Positions 2,753 to 34,708 of a stretch of 64,000 nucleotides of DNA are shown here, one piece after another. The DNA lies in contig NZ_QCZJ01000006.1 in NCBI RefSeq assembly GCF_003075435.1, forward strand, positions 1-64,000, read 5' to 3'. This DNA comes from Terrimonas sp. Its GTDB lineage: Bacteria; Bacteroidota; Bacteroidia; Chitinophagales; Chitinophagaceae. The translations under genes and the position numbers were made by a program. The notes under the pieces were generated by a model that was given only the letters and a program-made list of their open reading frames with translations, did no database searches and was not told where the DNA came from. Positions within the stretch are counted from its first letter, which is position 1. Each line of letters opens with the position of its first letter.

Positions 2753-3721
2753 ATGGACTTTTTAAAAATATCGGAAGTAAATAGAAAGGATGAGCTTGGA
2801 TTTGAAATCAAAAACATTAACCTTTCCGTTGCTCAGTTCAGCAAAACGGCAATAGCAGGTGCAACGGGCTCAGGCAAAAGCACTTTGCTAAAAATTATTG
2901 GCGGACTAGCGCATGCCGATTCCGGAGTAGTACTGTTCAGGGGAGAAAAAGTTTTAAGCCCGCTTGAAACACTAATACCCGGGCATAAAGGCATTGCATA
3001 CCTGTCGCAGCATTTTGAATTAAGAAATAACTATCGCGTTGAAGAAGTATTATCGTACGGCAATACGCTCGAAGAAGATGAAGCACAAAATATTTATACC
3101 ATCTGCCGCATTGATCATTTACTGAAACGTTGGACAAATCAAATTTCAGGGGGAGAAAGGCAGCGTATAGCGCTTGCTAAATTATTGGTTAGTTCTCCCC
3201 AATTACTGTTGCTTGATGAACCCTTTTCCAATCTTGATTTTACACACAAAACCATTTTAAAATCTGTTATAGAAGATATTGGTAAAAGGCTGCAGCTTAC
3301 CTGTATCCTTGTTTCTCATGATCCGCAGGATGTATTATCGTGGGCAGATAATATTTTAATCATACAAAACGGAGCAGTTATTCAGCAGGGCTCTCCTGAG
3401 GAAATTTATAAAAGACCGGTTAACGAATATGCAGCAGGGCTTTTTGGTAAATATATTTTACTGCCTGGAAGTGTAATAAATTATACTGTGCCGGATGGAA
3501 AAAATCTTTTTATACGTTCTTCTCAATGCACGGTTAACGGCACACAAAAACCAATGCTGAAAGGCGTGGTGAAGAAAGTATTATTTACCGGGGATTATTA
3601 CGACGTTGATATTGCCATCAATCAACATATTGTTACTATCAAAACTGAAACCGACAGTTTAAGCGTTGATCAGCAGGTTACGGTGTCTATACAAATTCCG
3701 GAAGTGCCGTGGTTTTTGTAA
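2753..3721 (+). CDS. ABC transporter ATP-binding protein, PotA/MalK-like with C-terminal TOBE-type domain
   Basis: Cytoplasmic ATPase subunit of an importer. Walker A GATGSGKST is at residues 36-44, the signature ISGGERQ at 131-137, Walker B LLLLDEP at 151-157, and the switch His in LVSHDPQD follows. Residues about 240-322 form an extra C-terminal beta domain (VKKVLFTGDYYDVDI) like the TOBE domain of PotA, MalK and ModC proteins. No permease or binding-protein gene is adjacent, so it is an orphan here and the substrate is unknown. Length is 322 residues. Confidence 0.85.
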   Translation: MDFLKISEVNRKDELGFEIKNINLSVAQFSKTAIAGATGSGKSTLLKIIGGLAHADSGVVLFRGEKVLSPLETLIPGHKGIAYLSQHFELRNNYRVEEVLSYGNTLEEDEAQNIYTICRIDHLLKRWTNQISGGERQRIALAKLLVSSPQLLLLDEPFSNLDFTHKTILKSVIEDIGKRLQLTCILVSHDPQDVLSWADNILIIQNGAVIQQGSPEEIYKRPVNEYAAGLFGKYILLPGSVINYTVPDGKNLFIRSSQCTVNGTQKPMLKGVVKKVLFTGDYYDVDIAINQHIVTIKTETDSLSVDQQVTVSIQIPEVPWFL

Positions 3722-5222: not shown

Positions 5223-5490
5223 ATAATTTTGTTGCATCACAGAAGCAGTGAGAATACAGTGAGTCACGCGGGTCATGTATTCATATCTGCATAGCGTGAT
5301 AAATTATAAAATCATTCTTTTAATTCCTTCTTTCATAGGAAGTGTGTAGCTGTATCCATCATTTGAGATGCTGACTGCTTTTCTTTTTCAGAAAGCGTTT
5401 ATACAGCTGTGCTATATATTGTTCCATAATTTTCAGTAATTAAAAATTCTCTGTGAAACTCAGTGTCCCAGTATCTCCGTGATTATCCAA
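5223..5490. other. Intergenic region without a supported gene
   Basis: I see only short open frames and a degenerate 22-codon minus-strand frame. It should contain the promoter of the radical SAM gene. Nothing else is supported. Confidence 0.4.
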
Positions 5491-30002: not shown

Positions 30003-31079
30003 ATGAATAGTTTTTTAGATAAAATATTTTTGGATAACAGTATACGGGAATACCTGGTGGTTGCTGTTGTCATTTTGGGCATATACATATTGAAAAAGTT
30101 TTTCAGCAAACCGCTGGTTGCTGCGATCATATTTTTTTTAAGATTAGCGGGGCGGCAGATAGATAAAAAAGCATTTAACGATCTTATCCTTAAACCGCTG
30201 GAACAGTTCCTGATTGTTTTTACATCATTCATTGCTTTGATCTCTTTAAAATTTCCACGGATATTTATTTTTAGCTTTTACAGAACCGATACTCAAATCA
30301 TTCTTGAAAGAATTGGTTTAAGCCTGGTGATCGTCTATTTTTTCAGGTTGCTGATAAGAATGATAGATTACCTGGCGTATGTGATCAGCAAAAAGGCGGG
30401 TGAAGAATCGGGGCAGGAAGAAAACCAGTTGGTGATCTTTTTTAAAGATTTTTTAAAAGCAATTGTATTTATAGCGGGACTTTTTACTGTCATCAAATTC
30501 GCGTTCCGCTACCAGATATCTGAGTTACTTACAGGATTAGGAATAGTTGGTGCGGCGCTGGCGCTTTCTGCAAGGGAAAGCCTGGAAAACCTGATAGCAT
30601 CTTTTATTATATTTTTCGATAAACCTTTCGCCGTAGGGGATACGCTTAAAGTGCAAAACATAACCGGCACAGTTGAAAAAATCGGACTACGCAGTACACG
30701 TATACGCACAAACGAAAAAACCTACGTAAGTGTACCTAACAAGCAGATGGTGGATAGTATAGTAGATAACCTGAGTTTGCGAACACAACGGCGGGCTGAT
30801 CTCAGGCTGGAACTAAAGCCTGCTACAAATGCGCAGCGCGTACAGGAATTACTAGATGGCATCAAAACAATATTGCAACACCCCAAAATTGAAAACAGGG
30901 TATTGTTTCTGGAAGATGTTGTGCAGCAGGGGGGCTATCTTGTGCACGTAGAATATTATACTGCTCCAATTCCGGCAGAAGCATTTAACCAGGTAAAGCA
31001 AGAGGTAAACCTTGCTATTATCCAATTAATGGAAGGCCTTAATATTGAAGTTGTGGGGCCTAAGCAAGTGGCGGGATAG
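30003..31079 (+). CDS. MscS-type mechanosensitive ion channel protein
   Basis: 358 residues. Several N-terminal transmembrane helices, then the pore helix region LLTGLGIVGAALALSARESL and the beta domain FFDKPFAVGDTLKVQNITGTVEKIGLRSTRIRTNEKTYVSVPN typical of MscS. The C-terminal alpha/beta domain follows. It relieves osmotic pressure at the inner membrane. The gap to the previous gene is 14 bp. Confidence 0.9.
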   Translation: MNSFLDKIFLDNSIREYLVVAVVILGIYILKKFFSKPLVAAIIFFLRLAGRQIDKKAFNDLILKPLEQFLIVFTSFIALISLKFPRIFIFSFYRTDTQIILERIGLSLVIVYFFRLLIRMIDYLAYVISKKAGEESGQEENQLVIFFKDFLKAIVFIAGLFTVIKFAFRYQISELLTGLGIVGAALALSARESLENLIASFIIFFDKPFAVGDTLKVQNITGTVEKIGLRSTRIRTNEKTYVSVPNKQMVDSIVDNLSLRTQRRADLRLELKPATNAQRVQELLDGIKTILQHPKIENRVLFLEDVVQQGGYLVHVEYYTAPIPAEAFNQVKQEVNLAIIQLMEGLNIEVVGPKQVAG

Positions 31080-31197
31080 ACATTGATGAACTCTTGATAT
31101 AACAAACTCCTCATCTTAAAATTTTTTAAAACTTTTCAACAAAAAATTTGCATTGTAAAAAAAATCATTCAATCTTTGCACTCGCAAAACAAATTAT
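31080..31197 (+). promoter_or_regulatory. Possible strong promoter upstream of the tRNA island
   Basis: AT-rich stretch with TTG at 31149-31151 and CAATCTTTGCACTCGC at about 31170-31185. It resembles a -33/-7 pair of the Bacteroidota type and the TTTGCAC starts seen at stable RNA operons. No experiment supports it. Confidence 0.35.
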
Positions 31198-31198
31198 A

Positions 31199-31294
31199 TG
31201 CAACGCGCAATATTAATACATAATAAATCAATAGGCTGCTTTAGTCCGGAGGTGGATTATACAGTTTGCGGGGCACATAATGTTGTTGATTAAG
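31199..31294 (+). other. Mini-ORF (31 codons) before an intrinsic terminator
   Basis: ATG at 31199 opens a frame beginning MQRAILIHNKSIGCFSPEVD and stopping at 31292-31294. A terminator follows 23 bp later. It could be a leader peptide, a small protein or chance. There is no clear ribosome site, which is normal in this phylum. Confidence 0.3.
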
Positions 31295-31317
31295 TAAAAA
31301 CAAAATCACTCAAATAT

Positions 31318-31346
31318 AAGCCCCGCCTGAACCGCGGGGTTTTTTA
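31318..31346 (+). terminator. Terminator or attenuator before the tRNA array
   Basis: Stem AAGCCCCGC / GCGGGGTTT with loop CTGAACC, followed by TTTATTTT. It sits between the promoter-like region and the array. Confidence 0.8.
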
Positions 31347-31445
31347 TTTTCAGCCTCCCCACCCCCTCCAAATGAAGGGCTTATAGAGGAGCTGTATAGA
31401 TAAAGACATTTTGTAGGTGAGTGATTTAATATTCTTTAAATAAAA

Positions 31446-31607
31446 ATGATAAAACAATTACGACATAAACAGTTTAGAACAGCACAGTTGAATGATGCCC
31501 TATCATTCATGATATGCCAATGGAGTGAGCAGAATTTAGGGAATATTGTACCCATAGATAATTCGTATGAAAGTAAATCTTTGTGGCCGGAATGTATGCA
31601 TACATAA
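31446..31607 (+). other. Mini-ORF (53 codons) before a second terminator
   Basis: The frame begins MIKQLRHKQFRTAQLNDALS and ends ECMHT. It is followed 22 bp later by another strong terminator, repeating the layout of the previous mini-ORF. No family recognised. Confidence 0.35.
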
Positions 31608-31629
31608 TCTGAATTAAAAGATAATGCAG

Positions 31630-31662
31630 AAGCCCGGTCAAAAAAAATGACCGGGCTTTTTT
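31630..31662 (+). terminator. Second terminator before the tRNA array
   Basis: A perfect 11-bp stem AAGCCCGGTCA / TGACCGGGCTT with a 7-A loop, followed by TTTT. Confidence 0.85.
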
Positions 31663-31758
31663 ATGTGACCTATAAAAAATTATACACTTCCGATAATCTC
31701 CTCCAAAGTAGGAGATGGAGAGGAGGCTTGATATTAGGTGCAGAAAGGGAGGGAAACA

Positions 31759-31816
31759 AGCAGTCCCCGTTTGTTCCGATGCAAGCGGAAGAGATGCAAC
31801 AACGGGGATGCTTTTT
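31759..31816 (+). terminator. Long hairpin with inner stem-loop, terminator-like
   Basis: Outer arms AGCAGTCCCCGTT and AACGGGGATGCT pair with small mismatches. They enclose an inner hairpin TTCCG-ATGCAAG-CGGAA with a 7-nt loop. A T run follows at 31812-31816. It ends 30 bp before the first tRNA and could be a terminator, a processing signal or a decayed tRNA. Confidence 0.45.
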
Positions 31817-31845
31817 CCAAATGTGCTTTAGTTCTTTGTAATAAA

Positions 31846-31919
31846 GGGCAGTCATGTTCCAGGGCTGGCGAAAAGCATTTGCAATGCTTTTGTGCAGGGT
31901 TCGATTCCCTGGCTGTCCA
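31846..31919 (+). tRNA. tRNA-Ala(TGC)
   Basis: Acceptor GGGCAGT / GCTGTCC contains the G3-U70 pair that is the alanine identity element. Anticodon stem AAGCA / TGCTT with loop TTTGCAA, T arm CAGGG-TTCGATT-CCCTG, discriminator A. The D stem is weak (TGTT / GGCG, mostly G-T pairs). CCA is not encoded. Confidence 0.85.
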
Positions 31920-31923
31920 CAAT

Positions 31924-31996
31924 GATCTGTTCGTCTAATGGTCCAGGACGCAAGATTTTCATTCTTGTAATACGGGTTCAACTCCCGTACAGATTA
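31924..31996 (+). tRNA. tRNA-Glu(TTC)
   Basis: Acceptor GATCTGT / ACAGATT, D arm GTCTAATGGTCCAGGAC, anticodon stem CAAGA / TCTTG with loop TTTTCAT, T arm ACGGG-TTCAACT-CCCGT. A clean cloverleaf with the usual Glu D arm. Confidence 0.9.
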
Positions 31997-32000
31997 CAAA

Positions 32001-32072
32001 GGTTCGTTGGTGTAATGGTTAACATCACAGATTGTCGATCTGCTGCTATGGGTTCGATTCCCGTACGAACCG
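32001..32072 (+). tRNA. tRNA-Asp(GTC)
   Basis: Acceptor GGTTCGT / ACGAACC, D arm GTGTAATGGTTAACAT, anticodon loop TTGTCGA, T arm TGGG-TTCGATT-CCCG, discriminator G as expected for Asp. The outermost anticodon-stem pair is A-C. Confidence 0.88.
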
Positions 32073-32077
32073 CACAA

Positions 32078-32149
32078 TACCGGGTGGTGTAATTAGCAAC
32101 GCGTCAGCGTTTGAACCTGATGTTCTCAGTTCAAATCTGGGCCTGGTAT
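32078..32149 (+). tRNA. tRNA-Gln(TTG)
   Basis: Acceptor TACCGGG / CCTGGTA with the weak T1-A72 pair usual in Gln tRNAs. Anticodon loop GTTTGAA. Oddities: C31-C39 mismatch, D-loop AATTAGCA without the conserved GG, and position 73 is T rather than G. It may be functionally impaired. Confidence 0.75.
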
Positions 32150-32160
32150 CAATATATAAT

Positions 32161-32233
32161 GTTGGCTTTAGCTTAACCGGTAAAGCGCCACACTGTGAAT
32201 GTGGAGAATAGAGTTCGAGTCTCAAAGTCAACC
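32161..32233 (+). tRNA. tRNA-His(GTG)
   Basis: Anticodon stem CCACA / TGTGG with loop CTGTGAA and D arm GCTTAACCGGTAAAGC. The 5' G can serve as G-1 opposite a 3' C, the His identity feature, with acceptor TTGGCTT / AAGTCAA. The T stem is poor (GAG / CTC plus a mismatch), so the gene looks eroded. Confidence 0.75.
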
Positions 32234-32244
32234 AATGGAGAAGA

Positions 32245-32332
32245 TAATGATGAGCTAAACAGAATAGCAGGTATCCTCTTTTGTTACAGCGTTTATCCCG
32301 TAAAGTGGGCACACCTGTACAGTAAATCATTA
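32245..32332 (+). tRNA. tRNA-like structure, identity unclear
   Basis: Terminal 7-bp pairing TAATGAT / ATCATTA, then GA and a perfect D-like arm GCTA-AACAGAA-TAGC, and a third stem CAGGT / ACCTG enclosing 39 nt. No recognisable T arm. It occupies the slot of one array unit and is either decayed or a coincidental fold. Confidence 0.3.
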
Positions 32333-32351
32333 TTCATCTGCTTAAAAGCAA

Positions 32352-32445
32352 TACGGCTTGGTGTAAAGGCAACATATTCACTCCCCTTTCTTTCTGAAAG
32401 GTAGGTAGCGGGTGATTGTTTTCAGTTCAATTCTGAAAGCCGTAC
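32352..32445 (+). tRNA. tRNA with enlarged anticodon arm, identity unclear
   Basis: Acceptor TACGGCT / AGCCGTA, D arm GTGTAAAGGCAACAT and T arm TTCAG-TTCAATT-CTGAA are good. The stem TTCAC / GTGAT encloses 30 nt instead of 7, including the hairpin CCTTTC-TTTCT-GAAAGG at 32385-32401. Either the anticodon loop is interrupted or the anticodon arm is lengthened. The D arm resembles the Gln and Trp units of this array. Confidence 0.6.
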
Positions 32446-32451
32446 AAAAAC

Positions 32452-32544
32452 TGGCTTATAGTTCAATGCCTGCCGGACAGGCAGGGATAAGAATGCTTCA
32501 CTACGGATGAAGAGATGAGCGTTCGAACATTTCTAAGCCAGCCA
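32452..32544 (+). tRNA. tRNA-Arg(ACG) with a palindrome in the D-loop
   Basis: Acceptor TGGCTTA / TAAGCCA, then G73 and an encoded CCA, the only encoded CCA in the array. Anticodon stem CTTCA / TGAAG with loop CTACGGA. The D-loop reads AATG, then CCTGCCGGACAGGCAGG (32468-32484), then GATAA; removing the 17-nt hairpin restores a normal loop. The T arm is irregular. Confidence 0.7.
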
Positions 32545-32547
32545 TAT

Positions 32548-32620
32548 TGACCCATAGCTCAATGGTAAGAGCAATAACCTTATACGTTAAAGGTTACCGG
32601 TTCGAGTCCGGTTGGGTCAA
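32548..32620 (+). tRNA. tRNA-Ile(TAT)
   Basis: Acceptor TGACCCA / TGGGTCA, D arm GCTCAATGGTAAGAGC, anticodon stem ATAAC / GTTAA with loop CTTATAC, variable AGGTT, T arm ACCGG-TTCGAGT-CCGGT, discriminator A. All lengths are standard, which fixes the anticodon as TAT. That anticodon is rare in bacteria. Confidence 0.8.
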
Positions 32621-32627
32621 CAAAAAT

Positions 32628-32698
32628 TGCGGTTTAGAGTAATGGTAACTCAATGGTCTCATAAGCCATAGCTGCAGGTTCGACTCCTGTAGCCGCAA
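32628..32698 (+). tRNA. tRNA-Met(CAT) or Ile2(CAT)
   Basis: Acceptor TGCGGTT / AGCCGCA, D arm GAGTAATGGTAACTC, anticodon stem ATGGT / GCCAT with loop CTCATAA, T arm GCAGG-TTCGACT-CCTGT. The paired T1-A72 argues against an initiator. Met versus lysidine-type Ile cannot be told by eye. Confidence 0.85.
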
Positions 32699-32703
32699 CA
32701 GTA

Positions 32704-32776
32704 GATGACTCAGCTCAATTGATAGAGCACTATCCTGATACGATAGCGGTTGACAGTTCAATTCTGTCAGTCATCA
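32704..32776 (+). tRNA. tRNA-Ile(GAT)
   Basis: Acceptor GATGACT / AGTCATC, D arm GCTCAATTGATAGAGC, anticodon stem CTATC / GATAG with loop CTGATAC, T arm GACAG-TTCAATT-CTGTC, discriminator A. A clean cloverleaf. Confidence 0.9.
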
Positions 32777-32782
32777 CTACTA

Positions 32783-32854
32783 TGCGACTTATTTCAATGG
32801 AAGAAATCTACTGTTACAAAGTAGAAGTTAACAGTTCGAATCTGTTAGTCGCAA
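32783..32854 (+). tRNA. tRNA-Val(TAC)
   Basis: Acceptor TGCGACT / AGTCGCA, D stem TTTC / GAAA, anticodon stem CTACT / AGTAG with loop GTTACAA, a regular T arm with loop TTCGAAT, discriminator A. The position-32 G is unusual. Confidence 0.85.
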
Positions 32855-32860
32855 CAAAAT

Positions 32861-32935
32861 TGGTTTGTAACTCAATTGGATCAGAGTACCGGTCTTTTAC
32901 ACCGGGAGTTGTGAGTTCGAGTCTCACCAGACCAA
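32861..32935 (+). tRNA. tRNA-Lys(TTT)
   Basis: Acceptor TGGTTTG / CAGACCA, D arm with ACTC / GAGT, anticodon stem CCGGT / ACCGG with loop CTTTTAC, T arm GTGAG-TTCGAGT-CTCAC, discriminator A. Confidence 0.9.
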
Positions 32936-32941
32936 CAAGAG

Positions 32942-33015
32942 GTCGTGCTGGCAGACGTGGCAGTAAGCACCCGACTGCAAATCGGGAGAAAGAAGTTCGA
33001 TTCTTCTGCACAACT
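32942..33015 (+). tRNA. tRNA-Cys(GCA)
   Basis: Anticodon stem CCCGA / TCGGG with loop CTGCAAA, T arm AGAAG-TTCGATT-CTTCT, acceptor GTCGTGC / GCACAAC with a C3-A70 mismatch, discriminator T as expected for Cys. Confidence 0.85.
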
Positions 33016-33019
33016 CTTT

Positions 33020-33098
33020 GGATGAATAGTTCAATGACAGAAACCCGCCATTGGCGGGATTAAGCCGGGGGTTGAAAATTCGAGCCTTTCTTCGTCCG
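33020..33098 (+). tRNA. tRNA-like gene with a palindrome at the anticodon arm
   Basis: Acceptor GGATGAA / TTCGTCC, D arm beginning GTTCAATGACAGAAA and T arm GAAAA-TTCGAGC-CTTTC support a tRNA. The anticodon arm position holds CCCGCC-ATT-GGCGGG (33044-33058), and the following region is too long for a normal variable loop. The anticodon cannot be assigned. Probably a disrupted gene. Confidence 0.5.
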
Positions 33099-33108
33099 CT
33101 GAATATAT

Positions 33109-33192
33109 GTGAGTGCGCCGGAGATGGAGAGCCGGGATGTTCTGTAAAATCATTGCTTCATAGCTGAGTAAGTTCGAACCTTACCACTCACA
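33109..33192 (+). tRNA. tRNA-Tyr(GTA)
   Basis: Acceptor GTGAGTG / CACTCAC, D stem CCGG / CCGG, anticodon loop CTGTAAA, a long variable arm (TGCTTCATAGC) as in class II tRNAs, T arm GTAAG-TTCGAAC-CTTAC, discriminator A. One T-T mismatch lies in the anticodon stem. Confidence 0.85.
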
Positions 33193-33222
33193 CAGGAGAT
33201 ATAATCTCCGGAGAACATATAG

Positions 33223-33247
33223 TGTACGAAGTCTCCGACTTCGTACA
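33223..33247. repeat. Palindromic hairpin in the tRNA spacer
   Basis: Perfect 11-bp arms TGTACGAAGTC / GACTTCGTACA with loop TCC, lying between tRNA-Tyr and tRNA-Ser(TGA). A smaller palindrome GGAGAT-ATA-ATCTCC is at 33195-33209. Confidence 0.8.
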
Positions 33248-33259
33248 GCGAAAACAAAT

Positions 33260-33343
33260 GGAGAGAGTCCGGTTGGTCGAGGAAGCTGTCTTGAAAACAG
33301 TGGACTGTAAAAAGGTTCAGGGGTTCGATTCCCTTTCTCTCCG
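33260..33343 (+). tRNA. tRNA-Ser(TGA)
   Basis: Acceptor GGAGAGA / TCTCTCC, anticodon stem GCTGT / ACAGT with loop CTTGAAA, long class II variable arm, T arm AGGGG-TTCGATT-CCCTT, discriminator G. Confidence 0.88.
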
Positions 33344-33360
33344 CGAAAGTATTTACTGGT

Positions 33361-33430
33361 TACACTTTGCTGCATAGCGAACAGAAAGCAGAAGAGTGCG
33401 ACGCAACGGAAGCTGATAGTAGCAATACAG
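33361..33430 (-). repeat. Dispersed repeat copy in a tRNA spacer
   Basis: On the minus strand it reads TATTGCTACTATCAGCTT followed by GTTGCGTCGCACTCTT, matching the element at 25804-25840. It separates the two serine tRNAs by about 100 nt, unusually long for this array. Confidence 0.6.
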
Positions 33431-33447
33431 TTGATAACATAAAAAAC

Positions 33448-33532
33448 GGAGAATTGACAGAGCGGTAATGTGCAGGTTTGCTAAACCCAGGCTATCGGAA
33501 ACGATACGAAGGTTCGACTCCTTTACTCTCCG
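33448..33532 (+). tRNA. tRNA-Ser(GCT)
   Basis: Acceptor GGAGAAT / ACTCTCC with one mismatch, anticodon loop TTGCTAA, a good variable-arm hairpin TATCG-GAAA-CGATA, T arm GAAGG-TTCGACT-CCTTT, discriminator G. The anticodon stem has two mismatched outer pairs. Confidence 0.8.
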
Positions 33533-33600
33533 CAAAGTTTGTGATGAATGAATTCGATGAAGATGAATTAGTGATCTGTCAATGTTCATTGCAAACAAAA

Positions 33601-33694
33601 AGACAAATAGCTACCAATGGTAGAGCACCCCGCTGAAGACGGGATAGTGCAGGTTCCCTGCCCGTCCGGCAGGCGGGGAGTCCTGCTTTGTCCG
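33601..33694 (+). tRNA. tRNA-Phe(GAA) with a palindrome in the T-loop
   Basis: Anticodon stem CCCCG / CGGGA with loop CTGAAGA, T stem GCAGG / CCTGC. The T-loop reads TTC, then a 21-nt insertion at 33657-33677 (CCTGCC-CGTCC-GGCAGG plus CGGG), then GAGT. Without the insertion the loop is a normal TTCGAGT. Acceptor AGACAAA / TTTGTCC has an A1-C72 mismatch, and the discriminator is G rather than A. Confidence 0.75.
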
Positions 33695-33700
33695 CACTGT

Positions 33701-33772
33701 ACGGGTTTGGTGTAATTGGCAACATAATGGTCTCCAAAACCATTGTTGCAGGTTGGAATCCTGCAACCCGTG
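33701..33772 (+). tRNA. tRNA-Trp(CCA)
   Basis: Acceptor ACGGGTT / AACCCGT, D arm GTGTAATTGGCAACAT, anticodon stem ATGGT / ACCAT with loop CTCCAAA, discriminator G. The T-loop is TTGGAAT, so the conserved C56 is G. It is the last tRNA of the array. Confidence 0.88.
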
Positions 33773-33949
33773 CAATAAATGAAATGAACCATAATAAATT
33801 TCATATCGATAGAATGATTATGTGGAGAGTTTCATCAGACCACTAAAATAAAAAAGATAAAAGATGAAAAAGAACGCAATGTTCATAATGACAAATAGCG
33901 AAAAGCCGCAATGGCATAACAGATTTCGAACGGAACAAAACCATTCATT

Positions 33950-34708
33950 ATGGACACAAAACTTATTCAACAGTACGGAGAAGATATTCTCTGCTACAGG
34001 CTTCGCACTGCACGACAAAAAAAGCGCATGCGGTTCGAAGATTTTGACAAACAACTTATACAACTGGATATTAAGCGCAGAGCACTGTGGGTGAAAAGGA
34101 ATAATCTTGGTTGTGAACCTTTGATACCACCCATACAAAAAGGTTGGAAACGATTTTTTGTTTTGAGAGAGGATGTGGCAGGAAGTAAGCACGCTGAATT
34201 TTTTCAGTGCATACTTGATAAAATAAATACGAAGGATTGGAGTGCAAAAAGAGATTTTAAAGTAAGGCGAAGAAAGTTAGGAAGGAAAATATATGTAGTT
34301 AAACCACAGAAACTTCTTGCTCCAGATGAGCATCACTTTAGGAGATTGGGATTTACAGAGGCGGAACGACAATTGTTTTATCCTGAGCTCAGGTATGAAA
34401 AATGGTGCAACCACCCGGTAAAACGATATGTATTTGCAGAACCCTGGCGCTTTGTATTGAGAGTACAGCCTAATATGATTGATAAAGTGAGAATTAAAGA
34501 TGCGGAGCTGGAATCGGAAATTGATAAGATAGATAATTATATAGAAAGGCGGGACTTAGAAAAGCGAATGGGGAAAATTTTAAGAGGCTGGCATAAATAC
34601 GGTTGGTGGGATTGGAAAAATATGGAAAGATATGATGAGGTAAATCCTTATAAAAACAAATCGCTTAAGCAAATGCTGGATATGATTCGGCAGGATGAAA
34701 GAGAATGA
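33950..34708 (+). CDS. Basic protein of unknown function next to the tRNA array
   Basis: 252 residues, rich in Lys, Arg and Trp, with no signal or membrane segment. Charged helical N-terminus (DILCYRLRTARQKKRMRFED, then FDKQLIQLDIKRRALWVKR), a middle with KRFFVLREDVAGSKHAEFF, and a C-terminal LRGWHKYGWWDWKNMERYDE. I do not recognise a family. The composition suggests nucleic-acid binding, which is inference. It begins 178 bp after the last tRNA, on the same strand, and precedes the RNase H-like gene by 19 bp. Confidence 0.7.
   Translation: MDTKLIQQYGEDILCYRLRTARQKKRMRFEDFDKQLIQLDIKRRALWVKRNNLGCEPLIPPIQKGWKRFFVLREDVAGSKHAEFFQCILDKINTKDWSAKRDFKVRRRKLGRKIYVVKPQKLLAPDEHHFRRLGFTEAERQLFYPELRYEKWCNHPVKRYVFAEPWRFVLRVQPNMIDKVRIKDAELESEIDKIDNYIERRDLEKRMGKILRGWHKYGWWDWKNMERYDEVNPYKNKSLKQMLDMIRQDERE

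Follow-up and report, generated by a model that had tools for sequence, protein, structure and literature searches.

The window analysed here is a 64,000-nucleotide stretch of a Terrimonas sp. genome (assembly GCF_003075435.1, contig NZ_QCZJ01000006.1, positions 1 to 64,000 of the forward strand), and the subject is an array of ~19 tRNA units, close to one per isotype, on its + strand (31846–33773). Alignment with orthologous units from related Chitinophagaceae showed that scattered short palindromes (15–24 bp) had entered units of such arrays repeatedly. Their placement, judged on the same alignments, was shown to be non-random, one end of the palindrome or the centre of the stretch that it replaced lying mostly at the tip of a tRNA arm. 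Tip-directed insertion of palindromes into units that are dispensable because they belong to a reserve tRNA set induced by stress is, in our judgement, a reasonably probable explanation.

Palindromes in the window

The window's genome (G000) has 6.18 Mb in 82 contigs and 53 tRNA matches, including those of the array, which sits on a 253-kb contig. ARAGORN found 14 tRNAs in the window, every one inside the array; orthology added Arg-ACG, Asn, Phe, one Leu and one odd unit without an isotype. A preliminary description had reported four hairpins with 6-bp arms in or beside the loops of these units and had considered insertion into loops as one possibility. All four are present, the Arg hairpin being shifted by one base (32469–32485, earlier given as 32468–32484), and three of them, in the Arg, Asn and Phe units, hold as insertions.

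In tRNA-Arg-ACG (32451–32542, +) the 17-bp palindrome CCTGCC-GGACA-GGCAGG (32469–32485) lies in the D-loop between G18 and G19, with no deletion. The site (AATG^GAT) is empty in 12 intact orthologues, e.g. AATGGATCAG in locus L041 (AATG^GATCAG), and the junction is at the apex of the loop. In tRNA-Phe (33602–33695, +) the 21-bp sequence CCTGCCCGTCCGGCAGGCGGG (33657–33677; CCTGCC-CGTCC-GGCAGG at 33657–33673 plus CGGG) lies in the T-loop between C56 and base 57, again with no deletion. The Phe unit of L040 is otherwise much alike and is empty, reading GGTTCGAGTCCTGC (GGTTC^GAGTCC), and the same 21-mer as in the window's Phe was found in the T-loop of the L039 tRNA-Asn. The earlier suggestion of insertion was supported by the empty sites of the L041 Arg and L040 Phe orthologues.

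The third hairpin, CCCGCC-ATT-GGCGGG (33044–33058, +), is real and lies at an anticodon arm as described. It is not in the loop; it replaces the 5′ half of the arm, with loss of 8 nt and its 3′ junction adjoining base 34, in a unit (33020–33099) that is tRNA-Asn by orthology with L039, whose Asn anticodon arm is intact. Relatives carry the Arg, Asn and Phe units without a palindrome and with intact loops or arms, rather than lacking these tRNAs altogether. Predicted folds of the window's Phe and Arg units were not cloverleaves, no intact unit having been folded as a control, and by orthologue comparison the Arg, Asn and Phe units are insertion scars; as decoders they are probably dead or weak.

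The fourth hairpin, CCTTTC-TTTCT-GAAAGG (32385–32401, +, 6-bp arms), belongs to the tRNA-like unit without an isotype (32352–32445). It is kept in five arrays (the window, L040, L041, L042 and L045) with a mean column identity of 89%; the L045 copy of the hairpin differs in one base, and a variant in L097, CCTCTT-TTTCT-AAGAGG, has both arms changed together. On this comparison it is an ancestral, native part of its unit, and a recent insertion was rejected. The anticodon arm of this unit is extended, and its TTTCT loop is conserved.

Insertion events in related arrays

P0001, a 252-amino-acid protein gene (33950–34708, +) that adjoins the array in relatives, was used as a hook to find the corresponding loci. 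The 38 neighbourhoods collected, the window's own among them, yielded 17 arrays, which together with L043 made a comparison set of 18; L105, with a single tRNA, was not used. Loci and genomes correspond as follows: L040 is G002 (BAC11), L039 is G005 (BAC13), L042 is G396, L041 is G136 and L044 is G412.

Seven of the 18 arrays, including that of the window, carry 23 palindrome events when a shared Arg site is counted once, and filled and empty sites stand side by side in the aligned orthologous units. Palindromes were found in Arg, Val, Met, Asn and Trp of BAC13, in Glu, Asp, Gln, Arg, Ile, Leu (twice) and Ser of BAC11, in Pro, Glu, Asp, Val and Ser of G396, in Glu of G318, in Glu and Phe of G392 and in Asn of G241. 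The remaining 11 arrays showed no inserted palindrome in the palindrome scan or the unit alignments. Assembly error was judged unlikely from the assemblies, as the events occur in seven genomes, including the single 9.03-Mb contig of G318.

Loss of sequence at the insertion sites ranged from 0 to 19 nt. Five mapped array events of the CCTGCC type (Arg and Phe of the window; Val, Asn and Trp of BAC13) lie in D- or T-loops and delete nothing. The suggestion that the cloverleaf arms are kept intact did not survive: 11 of 21 mapped events lose 6–19 nt, i.e. half a stem or a whole arm. A whole arm was swapped for another hairpin in Glu of BAC11, G318 and G392 and in Glu and Val of G396, and the anticodon appeared by eye to be damaged in the window's Asn, the G396 Asp and the BAC11 Ile.

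To locate these events relative to the arm tips, each was divided into its palindrome and the two flanks, and an intact orthologue served as the reference. The tips were set at 18|19 (D), 34|35 (anticodon) and 56|57 (T), and an event counted as at a tip if either junction, or the middle of the sequence that was lost, lay no more than 1 nt away; the null was random placement with the same deletion lengths in 20,000 runs. In the main test 18 of 21 events were at a tip against 6.3 expected, and no run exceeded 14 (P < 5e-5). Nine items stood outside these 21: the shared Arg site in BAC11 and BAC13, two Glu anticodon-arm events, two variable-arm events and three non-palindromic T-loop inserts. Adding six of them (the two variable-arm events and two of the non-palindromic inserts included; both Arg copies and the L039 Leu staying out) gave 21 of 27 at a tip against 7.8 expected (P < 5e-5). 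When the limit was relaxed to 2 nt the count was 21 of 27 against 11.7 (P 5e-5), and without two near-copies it was 19 of 25 against 7.5.

All six T-loop palindromes begin at 56|57, and the T-arm replacements in BAC11 Glu and in G396 Glu and Val are centred on it; the non-palindromic T-loop insert of G396 Pro lies at about 54|55. Five of six anticodon events fall within 1 nt of 34|35; the sixth, in BAC11 Ser, is 3 nt off. The acceptor stem was touched in none of the 21 events (4.4 expected, P 0.007). In G002, where a broken copy of tRNA-Gly stands next to an intact one, the broken copy has its palindrome at anticodon 34|35. The T-loops of L039 Leu (about 3081–3175) and Ser (5257–5396) carry a related, non-palindromic insert of ~50–55 nt that contains GAACACAAAAA.

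Palindrome families in the genomes

CCTGCC-N5-GGCAGG occurs twice in the window against none in 100 dinucleotide shuffles; the genome search that had been proposed found it at four places in 6.18 Mb, two of them inside the array. With a spacer of 4–6 nt and overlapping matches counted separately, forward matches numbered 26 in G000, 11 in G002 and 59 in G005, against 0, 1 and 0 in reversed controls; four further genomes had 2–5 each, with 0 or 1 in the controls. Since G000 had 26 matches and its reversed control none, the CCTGCC palindrome is a repeat family. A second family, TCCCG-N(3–10)-CGGGA, gave 88 matches against 20 in G002 and 133 against 30 in G005; it is weak in the window's own genome, where 24 matches stood against 11 in the control. 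Two copies also lie in protein genes, reading PAGQAG in a stop-to-stop frame of 451 amino acids (L001) and PAGRAG in one of 653 (L004). Chance origin of the palindromes was rejected by the shuffles, the genome counts and the reversed controls. The earlier idea of an element like the repetitive extragenic palindromic (REP) sequences that prefers tRNA loops is upheld in that the palindromes occur genome-wide and their positions in tRNA arms are strongly non-random.

The array as a second tRNA set

Twelve intact Arg units from 12 arrays were examined over 21 base pairs, and 252 of 252 cells were paired. Two-sided changes were seen in 11 pairs against a shuffle mean of 5.5, Arg being the sole isotype examined. 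Because these units keep perfect pairing through compensatory changes, the array is read from its sequence as a maintained second tRNA set.

On the + strand the array is preceded by a pair of short reading frames, and a terminator lies behind each of them. Leader peptide 1, MQRAILIHNKSIGCFSPEVDYTVCGAHNVVD (31198–31293; 9199–9294 in L088, whose positions plus 21999 are those of the window), uses 19 of the 20 amino acids and has terminator 1, CCCCGC-CTGAACC-GCGGGG-TTTTTT (31321–31345), on its 3′ side. Leader peptide 2 (31446–31607; MIKQLRHKQ...LWPECMHT, 53 aa) uses all 20 and is followed by terminator 2, AAGCCCGGTCA...TGACCGGGCTTTTTT (31630–31662). The two leaders of this region (31198–31662) jointly use all 20 amino acids, and the pair is present in most relatives. 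Inspection by eye showed, between terminator 2 and the array of several relatives (L041, 3950–4090; L044, 2810–2935; L045; L097), a short frame for a membrane-type peptide that ends in HPAG..R or the like.

Leader 1 used 17–20 amino acids in 29–33 codons in 16 arrays (mean 18.6), against 14.3 in protein windows of the same length and 14.2–14.9 in mechanically chosen short frames. Single P values ran from 0 of 5000 to 0.11 for random draws and from 0.006 to 0.10 for short frames, the arrays being related and so not 16 independent trials. Leader 2 averaged 19.1 against 17.0, with weak cases in L096 (15), L102 (17) and L103 (18). Neither leader was detected in L093 or L106, which were kept outside these counts. 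A terminator followed leader 1 in 15 of 15 arrays tested. Terminator pattern 1 was found near all 18 arrays, although the L106 case is doubtful, and pattern 2 near 16, against 4 and 2, respectively, of 24 P0001 loci without an array.

Ribosome-mediated transcription attenuators likewise have a short leader frame with an intrinsic terminator behind it, and from its sequence the leader pair upstream of the array is possibly a pan-amino-acid attenuator. In the window, codons 24–26 of leader 1 (GCGGGGC) could pair with the 5′ arm of terminator 1 (P 0.10 against codon shuffles). Among the 15 arrays, 5–9 nt within codons 21–26 were complementary to that arm in every case.

Explanations for the tip-directed insertions

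In the preferred explanation, the array would be silenced by the two leader-peptide attenuators and released on stalling from lack of nearly any aminoacyl-tRNA, a ribosome stalled anywhere upstream letting the antiterminator form. As housekeeping tRNAs cover normal growth, single units of the array would be dispensable for long periods. The likeliest cause of the insertions themselves would be a tRNA gene strand that is folded into a hairpin, or cut by a nuclease at the loop, and repaired by uptake of a palindrome. More tentatively, and with confidence short of even, we suggest that these ultra-short palindromes make up a class of hairpin elements, which insert at the tips of tRNA arms (elbow and anticodon), hairpin for hairpin, probably at cleavage sites of the tRNA or its gene, and that the array is an emergency tRNA reserve switched by leaders of nearly all 20 amino acids that sense any tRNA shortage. 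The arrays hold a natural record of the entry of foreign hairpins into RNA genes, with empty-site controls, making rules of palindrome mobility testable. They also suggest a design in which leaders with nearly every amino acid would sense tRNA loss in general, whether from toxins, phage nucleases or starvation, and would be coupled to its remedy, the reserve tRNA set.

Several results weigh against this explanation. The P values of the position test are optimistic because the choice of tips followed inspection of the alignments, and the six later-added events alone gave 3 at a tip against 1.5 expected (P 0.16). The events are partly dependent: a near-identical 21-mer occurs in three T-loops, and the Arg site is common to BAC11, BAC13 and the window. 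Some lie off the tip, a pseudo-Arg copy in G000 by 4 nt from the D apex and G241 Asn and BAC11 Ser by 3 nt. The excess of scanned palindromes in units over spacers (24 against 2, P 0.024) is modest and includes three native and two doubtful hairpins. Outside tRNAs the palindromes did not favour hairpin loops (2 of 17 against a null of 1.2, P 0.34; 4 of 14 against 2.3, P 0.16). The antiterminator pairing was significant (P < 0.05 against codon shuffles) in just 8 of 15 leaders 1 and 1 of 14 leaders 2. General targeting of hairpin loops across the genome was rejected as a separate candidate, no excess of flanking stems being found around palindromes outside tRNAs.

The alternative that survives best, though we think it doubtful, is that palindromes land at random and selection retains those after which the tRNA-like RNA can still fold and be processed, e.g. 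because a misfolded unit would spoil the processing of its neighbours in a long transcript. The untouched acceptor stems, the exchanges of a whole arm for another hairpin and the lack of loop preference outside tRNAs all fit such a filter. It would not, however, be expected to act on the broken tRNA-Gly of G002, which stands beside an intact copy and shares the tip junction; swapping half of the anticodon arm breaks the anticodon stem, and the start of all six T-loop palindromes at exactly 56|57 likewise speaks against it.

Nuclease scars are unlikely as the specific cause. Here an endonuclease, either a GIY-YIG homing type or an anticodon nuclease with copying back, would cut the loops, and the palindrome would be the repair patch; this is a narrower form of the preferred explanation, and the confidence placed in the two overlaps. 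D 18|19 and T 56|57, which meet at the tRNA elbow, with the anticodon tip as the third site, count in its favour, as do RNA ligase genes (present in 3 of the 14 array genomes that were searched) and a GIY-YIG frame that follows a palindrome-bearing partial tRNA-Arg copy in G000 (and, by eye, in G003). The window's genome, however, is without an RNA ligase, and a broken tRNA-Arg copy in G005 precedes an intact tRNA with no GIY-YIG frame between. Partial tRNA-Arg copies with a CCTGCC palindrome in the D-loop were observed at L167 (1480–1891; contig C11 of G000), L172 (G003) and L174 (G005). The GIY-YIG frame of G000 is small, and its last codons run into the next, intact tRNA; from its sequence the arrangement of partial tRNA-Arg and GIY-YIG frame resembles a homing unit that resides on tRNA genes.

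Plain decay, in which a pseudogene array gathers common repeats with no site preference, is improbable. It would account for the confinement of palindromes to 7 of 18 arrays and for palindrome-bearing units that have broken stems as well (by eye, mismatches in the T stem of the window's Arg and loss of the D stem in the L039 Arg), but it is opposed by the position test (P < 5e-5), by the pairing selection on intact Arg units and by scores of 38–70 bits against the tRNA model for 12 of the ~19 window units. That the hairpins are functional, retained in or spliced from a working tRNA, fits the five CCTGCC-type events without deletion but is very improbable, given related species with no palindrome at the same site, the anticodon damage seen by eye, the window's Phe and Arg folds and the listing by Rfam of no intron over 31000–34500 (E up to 1).

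Relation to known elements

Rickettsia palindromic elements (RPEs) are about 100–150 bp long. They resemble the elements described here as dispersed short palindromes that enter genes, including in frame in proteins (here PAGQAG and PAGRAG), but the present elements measure 15–24 bp, outside the RPE length, and lie at the tips of tRNA arms. The available part of one paper that mentions RPEs (PMC2694212) says nothing on tRNA loops. Mitochondrial double-hairpin elements, GC clusters and the RHEs of sponges are likewise very small mobile hairpins, and some of them lie in genes for structured RNAs such as rRNA; the present ones differ in their bacterial genome, in their tRNA arms and in often replacing half a stem or a whole arm. 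The fungal elements stay in transcripts, according to the part of PMC2800124 that was available.

REP elements are dispersed palindromes, as found here, and insertion sequences (IS) of the IS1397 type target REP loops. Insertion at a hairpin loop is a further likeness, but here the inserted piece is the palindrome itself and the target a tRNA arm. Group I or archaeal tRNA introns do not match: 15–24 bp is too short for a group I core, and the D- and T-loop sites, the loss of stem halves and the bulge-helix-bulge motif (judged by eye) do not fit.

The available text of PMC10272220 describes the Anabaena trn operon as a silent array of 26 tRNA genes on a plasmid, induced by translation stress and controlled by the repressor TrcR. 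By that partial account the likeness is a second tRNA set beside the housekeeping tRNAs; the difference is that the array there is on a plasmid under the control of TrcR, whereas the control proposed here is by leaders and terminators, on a 253-kb contig. By analogy, the present array may be a reserve set like the silent Anabaena operon under a different control. A literature search, with most subscription papers outside it, found no description of palindromes within the loops of tRNAs or of tRNA arrays with all-amino-acid leaders.

Genes adjoining the array

P0001 had no relative in Pfam, PHROGs, NCBIfam or PDB (best PDB sequence match E 0.081), and a fold search with its model (predicted local distance difference test, pLDDT, 80; predicted template modelling score, pTM, 0.54) gave no match (best E 2.2). 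Within the family it was found in 37 of 394 genomes, the window's included; it was also found in 8 of 394 genomes from elsewhere in the class and at 11 loci on named contigs assigned to Chitinophagaceae, Bacteroidetes, Niastella, Niabella, Puia or Flavipsychrobacter. Its four best matches beyond the family had no tRNA array within 3–4 kb around; one had a lone tRNA-Ser.

Downstream of P0001 on the + strand are genes for an RNaseH_like protein (PF04308; 34728–35216), found near 17 of 18 arrays with L106 as the exception, and for an AAA ATPase (PF00004; 35277–36425), found near 13. An RNA ligase (PF09414) was rejected as an essential partner on the genome counts given above. Its gene lies ahead of one array and within two others, at 3641–4621 in L039 and at about 4105–5085 in L040.

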